Both the position numbers and the translations under genes were made by a program. Below, in pieces: positions 3,640 to 25,801 of a DNA stretch of 64,000 nucleotides (positions are counted from its first letter, which is position 1; each line of letters starts with the position of its first letter). The stretch comes from Evansella sp. LMS18 (GTDB taxonomy: Bacteria; Bacillota; Bacilli; Bacillales; Salisediminibacteriaceae), in the NCBI RefSeq assembly GCF_024362785.1, contig NZ_CP093301.1, positions 558,001-622,000 on the forward strand. The letters run 5' to 3'. The notes beneath the pieces are model-generated. The model was given only the letters and a program-made list of their open reading frames with translations, made no database searches and was not told where the DNA came from.

Positions 3640-4044
3640 ATGAATCAATTTCATAATTCAAGATTTTCAACTATAATACGAACATTATCTTAAAAGGTTA
3701 CTTTGTTGTTCGATTTACGCTTCAGACGGACGCGTTCTGCGGGCTCGGCTTCAACTAATTTTTGACGGATGAACGCCGTCAAAAATGGATTTTCAGCTTT
3801 TCATGCTTTTCCCGCCAGAACGAGCATCTTCTTCACCGCAAATGTGCCGAGTTGTCTCGACGGATACTCTACGGAGCTAAGCTGGCAAAACTCTTTTTGC
3901 GACGAGTAACCGCAGGAGCAGGTCTCTTTTTTGCGACGAGTAACCGCAGGAGCAGAGGAAGAGACAGTCACCGCCGTCTTACGCTGCAATCGAAAAGAAA
4001 CAATCGTCTTTTTTATACAAAGTCTATATATGAAATACATTCAA
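3640..4044 (+). repeat. family L repeat, copy A (about 405 bp), with nested family S module
   Basis: The ends are imperfect inverted repeats (TGAATCAATTTCATA at the left; TGAATGTATTTCATA read inward from the right), and similarity continues inward for about 80 bp through a CGAAC...GTTACTTT...TTCGATT...ACG block. Copies B (34194-34530) and C (62231-62487, opposite orientation) align along their length. Compared with C, copy A carries an extra block from 3820 to 3966, which is the family S module. There is no transposase, so it resembles a MITE or other non-autonomous element. Open frames across it are by-products. Confidence 0.8.
3820..3966 (+). repeat. family S module nested in L copy A, enlarged by an internal duplication
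   Basis: It begins ACGAGC, contains the core CGAGTTGTCTCGACGGAT and ends GCAGAGGAAGAGACA, like the S modules elsewhere. L copy C has no S here (empty site CCAGAGTCGCCG), which fixes both borders. This copy is longer than the usual 80 bp because a 31-33 bp segment ending GACGAGTAACCGCAGGAGCA is tandemly duplicated (about 3892-3922 and 3925-3955). Confidence 0.75.
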
Positions 4045-6997: not shown

Positions 6998-7117
6998 TAT
7001 TAAGCCTCCTTATTTCATTAACCCTTTCTGTCCTTAATATTAGTTAATATTATGTTTTTATGTACTTAAATTAGAGAAGGAGCAAAGAAATTAATTATTT
7101 ATTAATGAGCGCATAAC

Positions 7118-7531
7118 TCACGGAAGGTTTCGGTAATCTGAAGCCATATGAATATTTTCTTTCTGACTATTTTTAGGTAGGTTTATTCTTAGAGTTAATG
7201 AATTATTATACTTTTTTGGGTTGAAGTAATAACATTCATCTGTCTGAGGACAATAAACACAGTATACATCTACATGGTCTTTGTTTACTGGTTTGTTAAT
7301 GTTTCCCGAACTATTTATATATGAAGAACGGAATCTTATCTCAATATTACCTCTAGCGTTTACCTCTCTGTATTTAACCTGAACTCTTTTAAAAGAAAAA
7401 TCCTTATATGTCACAATATCAAAAGGAGCATGTTCGGTTTGAGGAGTTAAAATCATATATCCTTTTTGATATAAATCCACTTGTGCCTTCAATACGCCTA
7501 AATCACCTTTATTTTTAGTTTGATGATACAT
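7118..7531 (-). CDS. free-standing PD-(D/E)XK homing-type endonuclease (PDDEXK_5 / I-Ssp6803I-like)
   Basis: The protein (137 residues) matches the group I intron-associated PD-(D/E)XK nuclease family. It has the N-terminal KNKGDLGVLKAQVDL segment, the catalytic FDIV...VQVKY core (Asp, then Gln-x-Lys), and the family's C-terminal DVYCVYCPQTDECYYFNP block with LRI...P...Q...I at the end. Known relatives such as I-Ssp6803I cut intron-less tRNA genes. Here the gene is outside the intron, about 165 bp past the 3' end of an intron-bearing tRNA-Arg gene on the same strand. I chose the ATG at 7531 (GAGGTG 7-8 bp upstream) over an in-frame GTG at 7546. The gene is more AT-rich than its neighbours. 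Its promoter region carries a LexA-like palindrome. Confidence 0.88.
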   Translation of the reverse strand: MYHQTKNKGDLGVLKAQVDLYQKGYMILTPQTEHAPFDIVTYKDFSFKRVQVKYREVNARGNIEIRFRSSYINSSGNINKPVNKDHVDVYCVYCPQTDECYYFNPKKYNNSLTLRINLPKNSQKENIHMASDYRNLP

Positions 7532-7581
7532 TGCAGCACACCTCACCCTTATAAAATTTTATGTTATATAGCACAAACATA

Positions 7582-7597
7582 AAGAACACCTGTTCTT
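7582..7597. promoter_or_regulatory. LexA-like palindrome in the endonuclease promoter
   Basis: AAGAACACCTGTTCTT is a perfect 6+6 inverted repeat whose core GAAC-N4-GTTC fits the Firmicute SOS box. It lies 51 bp upstream of the start codon, and a possible extended -10 (TGCTATATA on the minus strand) follows it, so a bound repressor would cover the -35 region. LexA control is inferred. Confidence 0.5.
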
Positions 7598-7649
7598 ATT
7601 ATATTGCAAAGGAAAACATTCTGGCTAGCACAAGCTACTATGAGATGAA

Positions 7650-7683
7650 TAAAAAAACCTATTACAATATTTTGTAATAGGTT
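7650..7683 (-). terminator. terminator of the tRNA operon
   Basis: A 12-bp perfect stem (AACCTATTACAA / TTGTAATAGGTT, 4-nt loop) is followed by seven Ts on the minus strand. It begins 12 bp past the CCA end of tRNA-Arg and separates that gene from the endonuclease. Confidence 0.88.
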
Positions 7684-7694
7684 GCTTTTATGTA

Positions 7695-8066
7695 TGGCGT
7701 CCCAGGAGAGATTCGAACTCCCGACCGACGGCTTAGCTTACCACTATGGCTTTCGCCACCAACAAACATTGTTTGTGGTCTGGACTATATCTTCACCATT
7801 TCAGGTGCGACACGTATAGTCTCTACGGATCCTCACGATAACCATATGATTATCCTTTAGTGTTTCTACCCTCAAGTATAGTACTTGATCCTTTGAAACA
7901 CCTTGTTCTCCACGAAGGAGAGCGTAAGTTTCCTCGGTATTACCATCAGCGTTATCTGTTAAGGCTTCACCGATATAGTGTCGTCCACTCTGCAAGTTTC
8001 TGTTTCCCTGCAGAGGCTCCTAGTTTTCTTGAAGGCCGTTGCTCTATCCAGCTGAGCTACTGGGAC
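7695..8066 (-). tRNA. tRNA-Arg (anticodon UCU) interrupted by a group I intron
   Basis: The 5' exon (8066-8032, 35 nt) runs from acceptor GTCCCAG through the D arm to U34. The 3' exon (7736-7695) supplies C35, U36, the rest of the anticodon arm, the T arm (GTTCGAATC), acceptor CTGGGAC, discriminator G and an encoded CCA. Joining them gives stem ACGGC/GCCGT with loop CTTCTAA, a normal tRNA-Arg(UCU). The gene cannot work unless the 295-nt insert at 7737-8031 is removed. It is the last gene of a tRNA-Gly/tRNA-Arg transcript. Confidence 0.93.
7737..8031 (-). ncRNA. group I self-splicing intron in the anticodon of tRNA-Arg
   Basis: The 5' exon ends in U and the intron ends in G, both group I rules. 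Elements I can pair on the minus strand are: a candidate guide GGAGCC for the exon end GGCCUU (P1, with U-G at the splice site and one C-A mismatch); P2 CUCUGCA/UGCAGAG; P3 CGACAC/GUGUCG; a long peripheral hairpin GUGUUUC...GAAACAC; P7 from GACUAU with AUAGUC inside GAAGAUAUAGUCC; P8 ACC...GGU; and a terminal GGCGAAAGCC hairpin like that of the cyanobacterial tRNA-Leu intron. It is small and encodes no endonuclease. Subgroup IC3 is likely by analogy with other bacterial tRNA introns. The split is between anticodon bases 34 and 35. Confidence 0.92.
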
Positions 8067-8115
8067 ATTGTACAATAATGATATTTAGTTGTTTGATCTG
8101 AAAACAGATCCTATC

Positions 8116-8195
8116 CTGTCTCTTCCTCTGCTCGAGTCGCTCCGAAGTCTATCCGTCGAGACAACTCGATGGGTTTCGGAGAAGTAAACGCTCGT
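8116..8195 (-). repeat. family S module, solo copy 1 (inside the tRNA operon)
   Basis: Read on the minus strand it starts ACGAGC, has core CGAGTTGTCTCGACGGAT and ends GCAGAGGAAGAGACA. Flanking arms CTCCGAA and TTCGGAG can pair outside the core hairpin. It sits between a duplicated 5' piece of tRNA-Arg and the true tRNA-Arg gene, within the predicted precursor transcript. Confidence 0.8.
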
Positions 8196-8216
8196 AGCTG
8201 AGCTACTGGGACATGT
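8196..8216 (-). pseudogene. duplicated 5' fragment of tRNA-Arg
   Basis: The minus strand repeats the first 17-18 nt of tRNA-Arg (GTCCCAGTAGCTCAGCT) plus a few upstream bases and then passes directly into the S module. It cannot form a tRNA. Confidence 0.75.
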
Positions 8217-8307: not shown

Positions 8308-8350
8308 ATGTTATTAATTTTAGACTTCATCTGCTTCTCCCGACCGGACA

Positions 8351-8429
8351 TGTCTCTTCCTCTGCAAGCATTGCTTTGGAGTGTATCCGTCGAGACAACT
8401 CGCTGCTGTTTCATGGATGCTTTGCTCGT
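8351..8429 (-). repeat. family S module, solo copy 2 (inside the tRNA operon)
   Basis: It has the same borders (ACGAGC...GAGACA) and core as solo copy 1, but the outer arms differ and remain complementary (GCAAAGCAT with ATGCTTGC). The stem appears preserved while its sequence changes. Confidence 0.8.
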
Positions 8430-8463
8430 GGCTGAGGTTTTACCACTAAACTACACCCGCATG
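8430..8463 (-). pseudogene. duplicated 5' half of tRNA-Gly
   Basis: An exact copy of the first 31 nt of tRNA-Gly (acceptor strand, D arm and start of the anticodon stem) plus a 3-nt CAT upstream, joined directly to the S module. The next about 40 bp upstream also resemble the sequence upstream of the intact gene. Confidence 0.85.
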
Positions 8464-25502: not shown

Positions 25503-25720
25503 GATACGACTTTCAACATAGTTAACAACTTAAAAGCCGCTCCGTGAGATAGTCCTCCATACAGATTTCCTGTATGACAGCACTGTATTTGTTCAATACA
25601 GTTCCAGAAAATTAAGTTTTGAGGCTTAATTTCCTTCGGCGGATTTCCCTTTCGGCTGCAGTCAATGAAGCTCAAACTTCTCATGCAGTTTACTGATGAT
25701 CTCCGCACCTCTATCAATCT
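25503..25720 (-). ncRNA. lysine riboswitch (L box) controlling lysC
   Basis: The minus strand carries the conserved L-box segments in order: GATAGAGGTGCGGAGATCATC, AGTAAACTGCATGAGAAG, CCGAAAGGGAAATCCGCCGAAG and GGACTATCTCACGGAGCGGC. GATAG at the start pairs with CTATC at the end (P1). The terminator follows directly and lysC starts about 175 bp downstream of it. High lysine is expected to stabilise P1 and allow termination. An open frame across this segment is not a gene. Confidence 0.95.
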
Positions 25721-25801
25721 ATAGAGCTTAATTATGGAATAGAAATCAATATTCAACCTGTATAGAAGTGTATCAAAGTATCCTTTAATTTGCAAATAAA
25801 T

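Follow-up and report, generated by a model that had tools for sequence, protein, structure and literature searches.

A free-standing PDDEXK_5 nuclease gene beside an ORF-less group I intron in a bacterial tRNA-Arg(UCU) gene

The homing endonuclease I-Ssp6803I cuts a tRNA anticodon region, and its gene lies inside the intron of a tRNA-fMet gene. A locus of Evansella sp. LMS18 raises the question of what a nuclease of this type does, and how it came to its place, when its gene stands outside the intron of a different tRNA gene. The locus lies in the window analysed here, a stretch of 64,000 nucleotides (NZ_CP093301.1, positions 558,001 to 622,000 of the forward strand), and all coordinates below are window positions. 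The original prediction had the nuclease gene about 165 bp past tRNA-Arg and outside an intron with no nuclease of its own, and proposed collaborative homing, in which the separate nuclease would cut the intronless tRNA allele and be inherited with the intron in one conversion tract.

The locus and its two parts

The minus-strand order is tRNA-Gly, the 5′ exon of tRNA-Arg(UCU), an intron, the 3′ exon, a hairpin and the nuclease gene (Table 1). With its intron option ARAGORN calls a tRNA-Arg(tct) with an intron at 7695-8066; without that option tRNA-Gly is its sole call and tRNA-Arg is missed. The limits of the intron (8031-7737, 295 nt) were set by an intronless sister allele. The distance from the 3′ end of tRNA-Arg to the nuclease gene is 163 nt, close to the spacing predicted, and the gene product has the expected family match, to PF11645. 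The intron was also rightly described as lacking a nuclease, since it has no nuclease ORF, only a frame of 64 aa. A free-standing nuclease gene adjoining an ORF-less intron is present at the locus, and the I-Ssp6803I arrangement with the gene inside the intron is absent in the window.

Table 1. Features of the tRNA-Arg(UCU) locus, in window positions
Feature	Position	Strand	Remark
tRNA-Gly	8307-8234	(-)	
tRNA-Arg(UCU) 5′ exon	8032-8066	(-)	ends ...GGCCTT within the anticodon loop
Group I intron, putative, ORF-less, 295 nt	7737-8031	(-)	exactly missing from the G017 sister allele
tRNA-Arg(UCU) 3′ exon	7695-7736	(-)	CTAAGCC... through the encoded CCA
Terminator-like hairpin in the gap between tRNA and nuclease gene	7651-7683	(-)	by eye; also in the empty G017 allele
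Free-standing PDDEXK_5 (I-Ssp6803I-like) nuclease gene	7118-7531	(-)	137 aa and stop
Alternative GTG start of the nuclease	7546	(-)	ORF 7118-7546
Short intron frame with GVSKDQV and LRVETLKDN	7801-7995	(-)	gene remnant or structural stem
Nuclease-holding segment missing from G017	7042-7648	(-)	~607 nt replacing ~41 nt

The likely start of the nuclease gene is the ATG at 7531, which by eye has a Shine-Dalgarno-like AGGGTGAGG ahead of it. The product matches Pfam PF11645 (PDDEXK_5) with E 7.1e-35 and 120.5 bits against a cut-off of 26.1, and it is the sole match to that family (E <= 0.001) in the 4.9-Mb genome. An AlphaFold2 model built from 25 homologues has a mean pLDDT of 89 and supersedes an earlier one from 10 sequences, whose pLDDT was 48. 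The best PDB match of the predicted model is I-Ssp6803I (2ost; E 8.7e-11, TM 0.71), the chains of which take ranks 1-4 among the PDB matches, and the nuclease is accordingly predicted, on the model, to have the I-Ssp6803I fold. The sequence-only match to 2ost is marginal (E 0.03-0.085); the QVK of the nuclease aligns to 2ost, and D38, Q51 and K53 are invariant in 25 of 25 aligned homologues. The D and QxK positions are those that we take to be the catalytic residues of I-Ssp6803I. Predicted fold, PDDEXK_5-type sequence and these positions are thus common to the two, whereas in the window the intron belongs to tRNA-Arg(UCU) and the nuclease gene stands outside it.

The nuclease gene is very unlikely to be a relic without function that is being lost. 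Broken copies do exist, in G112, G073, L036, L042 and G277, together with one frameshifted near its C-terminus in L035, but the window reading frame is intact with its catalytic residues invariant. In four pairs of free-standing relatives, of which three have members in common, omega is 0.06-0.11 at dS 1.07-1.75, and genes outside the intron have therefore stayed under constraint; these figures come from relatives, dS for the window nuclease being saturated. Carriage of the nuclease on plasmids was also considered and rejected, there being zero matches at E 1e-3 in 72,556 plasmid records.

The window intron matches Rfam Intron_gpI with E 8.7e-6 and 30.8 bits, under the gathering score of 50. 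Seventeen ORF-less introns, 14 from the order sample and 3 from the genome-contig scan described below, fold alike, with 1350 of 1392 cells paired and double-sided changes in 28 of 84 pairs, both counts being without a shuffle control. Of 28 introns extracted, the 11 of at least 330 nt, mostly ORF-bearing, were left out of the fold by design, and G175 was left out because the extraction pattern failed on it. By this comparison the window intron appears to be of group I, with a conserved fold and compensatory changes. It shares group I fold and insertion in the anticodon loop with other ORF-less tRNA group I introns and differs from them in adjoining a nuclease gene whose kin are intron-encoded at this site.

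The 64-aa intron frame reads GVSKDQV...LRVETLKDN, resembling the beginning and the end of the intron-encoded nuclease of G404 (GVLKDQV...LRVETPKNN). ORF-like remnants of this kind sit within a covarying hairpin of the 17-intron fold, and because that hairpin shows compensatory changes, the remnants in several introns may be ribozyme structure and not gene relic. The proposition that every ORF-less intron contains a gene relic was toned down for this reason. Clear internal ORF deletions are present in G201 (by eye) and G277, with a likely one in G112.

Alleles with both parts, one or neither

The sister species G017 is co-linear with the window apart from two separate absences, exactly the 295-nt intron and ~607 nt with the nuclease. 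The 89 nt that separate the intron from the nuclease are identical to G017 at 87 positions, which gives a tract of distant origin no support in the window and leaves room for two separate insertions or for double loss in G017. A single tract from a near donor and two events would both give the same 87/89 pattern. Within the genus of the window, alleles carry both parts or neither. The nuclease is present in one of nine genomes (G000), where the intron is found too; seven of the other eight have an intronless tRNA-Arg(UCU) with all 77 exon bases identical to those of the window, and the eighth, 76% complete, has no tRNA-Arg(UCU) match.

For the order, 397 genomes were taken by even sampling. 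The nuclease profile at E 1e-8 found 8 genomes, and a strict pattern for the intron, namely intron end plus tRNA exon with zero mismatches, found 18, which is a lower bound. The nuclease is held by 7 of the 18 intron-bearing genomes versus 1 of the 379 others (Fisher p 8.5e-10 for any nuclease against intron, kinship ignored). The original prediction had named independent distribution in relatives as the outcome that would count against it; the survey was run and no such independence was found. Among the seven genomes with both parts, the nuclease gene is free-standing and intact in G000, G395 and G278, free-standing but broken in G112 and G073, and intron-encoded in G404, where it is intact, and in G277, where it has an internal deletion. 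The only nuclease match without an intron match, in G084, is a distant homologue (E 2.9e-16) near tRNA-Ala. For free-standing copies Fisher p is 1.1e-7 without G084 and 6.2e-7 with it as a sixth, again with kinship ignored, and four of the five adjoin the intron-bearing tRNA, the broken copy of G073 being 11.6 kb off. A nuclease match is missing in 11 of the 18 intron-bearing genomes of the sample, and the intron therefore persists without the nuclease.

Two other genera were also surveyed. Among the nine genomes of genus g83, G395 and G278 have both parts, G319 has the intron only, G358, G414, G416 and G377 are empty, and G158 and G256 have neither a tRNA pattern match nor the nuclease; nuclease-only genomes number zero. 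In genus g47, G112 and G073 have the intron and a broken nuclease, G169 is empty, and G218 and G808 are without a pattern match. A phylum-wide sample gave the nuclease only in G000, one of 398 genomes at E 1e-20, a cut-off that would miss fragments like that of G073.

The tRNA-Arg(UCU) anticodon loop as the probable target

A scan of genome contigs gave 11 nuclease loci. In seven of these (L034 and L037-L042, that of L042 being frameshifted) the nuclease is encoded within an intron of tRNA-Arg(UCU), in three (L032, L033 and L035) it stands on its own next to a tRNA-Arg(UCU) with an ORF-less intron, and the remaining one, L036, ends at the contig end. Intron-encoded nucleases also occur in L044 and L071. 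ARAGORN gives other amino acids for L034, L037, L041, L044 and L071, but their exons are those of tRNA-Arg(UCU). Exon identity with the window around the insertion point extends 35 nt to the left and 38 nt to the right in L034, and 29 and 17 nt, respectively, in G404; the exons of L040, from Bacteroidota, match only 5 nt to the left and 6 nt to the right. Because close homologues are intron-encoded there, the intronless tRNA-Arg(UCU) site is the likely target of the nuclease.

Viruses supply a further set of homologues. A profile scan of IMG/VR found the nuclease in 20 loci with 15 distinct neighbourhoods, and in 18 of the 20 it follows an intronless tRNA-Arg(UCU), 17 of these being called by ARAGORN and the other, L070, which was labelled Pyl, being recognized by eye. 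Of the two others, L071 has the nuclease inside a tRNA-Arg intron and in L088 (34% identity) the nuclease adjoins other tRNAs. Synechococcus phage Sf-FR1 and Acinetobacter phage Herod likewise have the nuclease after tRNA-Arg(UCU).

These associations bear on the proposal that the window nuclease is an independent free-standing homing gene with another target site, merely near the intron. The native character of the intervening 89 nt, the distant homologue of G084 near tRNA-Ala without an intron match and the occurrence of distant phage relatives near other tRNAs are in its favor. Yet all five free-standing copies in the 397 genomes, G084 aside, are in intron-bearing genomes, close homologues are intron-encoded at the same site, and the viral genes stand just behind tRNA-Arg(UCU) with only two exceptions, all of which makes another target very unlikely. 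The window quite probably holds, instead, a two-part homing element at the tRNA-Arg(UCU) anticodon loop, with the nuclease outside and the intron ORF-less.

The way in which such an element would work can be set out from the genomics, which collaborative homing fits, with cleavage a prediction from sequence. The nuclease would cut an intronless tRNA-Arg(UCU), most likely on CTT^CTAAG or no more than a few bases from it. In the window genome this presumed site is interrupted by the intron, which would so protect it from the nuclease, while splicing would keep the tRNA-Arg working; the strict pattern finds one tRNA-Arg(UCU) 3′ half in G000, that of the intron-bearing copy. Repair of a cut allele from the window locus would copy the intron, and a repair tract reaching ~600 nt further would copy the nuclease too, so that both parts might be passed on in one tract. 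The collaborative homing originally proposed is supported in part, by its accord with co-occurrence and same-site homologues; the match of 87/89 nt to G017 gives no sign of a distant donor.

In eight viral contigs a 567-nt block of tRNA-Arg plus nuclease interrupts another tRNA-Arg(UCU) at one position of its anticodon loop. The neighbourhoods of this cassette are of four kinds (L076/L077/L079; L082; L083/L084/L085; L086), and its upstream flanks also form four groups (L076/L077/L079; L082/L086; L083/L084; L085), between which alignment is poor, with scores of 15-37 where identity would give 510. When the two halves of the interrupted tRNA are rejoined with a one-base overlap, a tRNA-Arg(tct) results in five of the eight contigs; in L083-L085 the 3′ half is non-matching and rejoining yields none. 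Used as a query, the rejoined tRNA matched 985 phage records, including tRNA-Lys and other genes, and one that was read, S-SM2, has an intact tRNA-Arg(tct). The cassette suggests that a homing nuclease can dispense with an intron by bringing a replacement tRNA.

Distant relatives of the nuclease are also present within split tRNAs of Enterococcus phage EFP01 (L124) and the viral contig L113. These rejoin as tRNA-Asn under some of many joins, a label that is tentative, and the space seems too small to accommodate a group I intron. In Salmonella phage SM5 (L125) the tRNA ahead of a distant relative is annotated as tRNA-Met and is tRNA-Asn(gtt) according to ARAGORN.

A possible route from inside the intron to beside it

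How such a gene can come to stand outside is seen in G112, where a tandem duplication includes the free-standing gene as one of its copies. The gene is followed by the intron 3′ half, then by a tRNA-Arg 3′ exon in decay and by the flank that the first tRNA also has. Self-alignment of G112 yields two matching stretches, one of 344 nt (83%) and one of 46 nt (89%), with a local score of 347 where 300 shuffles reached 35 at most. An intronic gene can therefore turn free-standing. In this relative at least, the free-standing gene was made when the downstream portion of a nuclease-carrying intron was duplicated in tandem; the upstream copy then lost its reading frame, and the downstream copy decayed outside the frame. 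The free-standing genes of G112 and G073 (L047, L048) are each interrupted, in different places, by what by eye is a similar-looking insert of ~150 bp.

Duplication scars were sought beside eight free-standing genes with 300 shuffles each. L036 has a trace of the tRNA 3′ exon behind its nuclease (40 vs 26, 0/300 shuffles), which itself has lost the QxK stretch. Moderate traces are a register-matched piece of intron core in L033 (score 25, 4/300) and a 14-nt tRNA-flank repeat in L045 (1/300), and a weak one is the 13-nt tRNA-flank repeat of L046 (9/300). No convincing scar was found in L035 (139/300), L032 has only a T-run (3/300), and in the window itself the scar is not significant, 21 of 300 shuffles reaching its score. 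That the window arrangement arose by duplication of the G112 type may be supposed from the relatives.

The competing explanation is turnover of the homing endonuclease gene (HEG), in which a free-standing nuclease newly arrived next to the tRNA and the earlier intronic gene was eliminated. KDQV in the window intron remnant corresponds to KAQV in the free-standing gene, so that neither is a recent copy of the other. The nuclease segment of G395 and G278 separates the tRNA from the tRNA flank native to the genus, which stands behind the nuclease. Flank scores for G395 and G278 are 166 (best shuffle 32) and 109 (42) against the intronless G414, and 99 (35) and 160 (33) against the intron-only G319, with 0/300 shuffles in each case; in G319 the native flank is directly behind the tRNA. 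These features favor turnover, but the downstream gene of G112, with intron 3′ half and tRNA 3′ exon, is a duplicate of an intronic gene, and turnover is on balance a somewhat unlikely account. G112 shows a route other than HEG turnover.

A further possibility for the downstream copies of the tRNA 3′ exon is that they are attachment-site duplications of a tRNA-integrating element. G073 has ~11.4 kb between 67-bp repeats that combine the intron 3′ end with the tRNA 3′ exon, as that explanation would have it, but the repeat of G112 takes in the intron 3′ half together with the start of the nuclease, far beyond an attachment core, and the explanation is improbable. Separately, in G073 itself (L048, L064, L136, L138) the 67-bp direct repeats suggest an integrative element that uses the intron-bearing tRNA as attachment site.

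The nuclease tree does not unite the free-standing genes. The AU test, run after the first tree had been seen, gives p 0.026 for eight rows and 0.169 for five, and a single origin of the free-standing genes is weakly rejected on these values. Two intron-encoded Bacillota rows forced into one clade give p 0.052.

The duplication reading and the phage cassettes can be combined, tentatively, in a single scheme that is possible without being the expected outcome. One nuclease lineage dedicated to the tRNA-Arg(UCU) anticodon loop would survive its own cut in three ways: in an intron, beside an ORF-less intron or, in phages, beside an intronless replacement tRNA-Arg inserted into the anticodon loop of another tRNA-Arg. 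The passage from inside to beside would be by tandem duplication and reciprocal decay, and the tRNA 3′ exon left over behind the nuclease would be a second right-hand homology arm. If so, one donor allele could deliver the intron alone or intron plus nuclease, and because the leftover 3′ exon would act as a second arm, intron-only alleles such as that of G319 would be explained.

PMC6083498, PMC10448857 and PMC3984707 describe phage collaborative homing as a free-standing nuclease beside an intron-bearing gene whose intron is without a nuclease, and as so described the window pairs its parts likewise. The differences are that the window is of a bacterial chromosome, the gene a tRNA gene, the nuclease of the PD-(D/E)XK type with close same-site intron-encoded kin, and the cutting predicted. 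New relative to the phage systems are the setting in a bacterial tRNA gene, close kin that are intron-encoded at this very site, and visible intermediates of the origin. PMC10448857 describes the origin of such arrangements as not clear and offers HEG turnover for phage loci. One tRNA site here shows intron-encoded, duplicated, decayed, free-standing, intron-only and empty states, and the question of origin is therefore directly testable. T4 SegB is, according to PMC2988022, another free-standing homing endonuclease within a tRNA gene region, its target being a tRNA intergenic region; it is of the GIY-YIG family, and the table in that paper mentions no intron for it. In the open-access literature, covered as titles and abstract openings, neither collaborative homing in a bacterial chromosomal tRNA gene nor a cassette of tRNA plus nuclease in a tRNA anticodon loop is named.

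The surroundings of the locus have features of their own. A repeat with a core of ~80 nt (ACGAGC...CGAGTTGTCTCGACGGATA...GAGGAAGAGACA) occurs in the window at ~8105-8214 and 8340-8462 and near 3848, 34399 and 37156, and has no Rfam match in the window; its 19-nt center matches the genome 93 times when up to 3 mismatches are allowed, against once for the backward control. Beside tRNA-Arg and tRNA-Gly the repeat stands after a partial copy of the 5′ end of that same tRNA, and G016 has two such units in tandem ahead of tRNA-Gly. Behind tRNA-Arg there is a similar leader-like stretch with a T-run at its end in L117 (G016), L136 (G073), L047 (G112) and, more weakly, L045 (G395), which are of different families; scores against G112 are 140 for G073, 102 for G016 and 41 for G395. 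The best match in the leader comparison is instead the nuclease start for G278, G000 and L032, and in G016 and G073 the stretch precedes a frame that starts TKRKG. Elsewhere in the window there is a lysine riboswitch at 25542-25721(-), with 118.4 bits.
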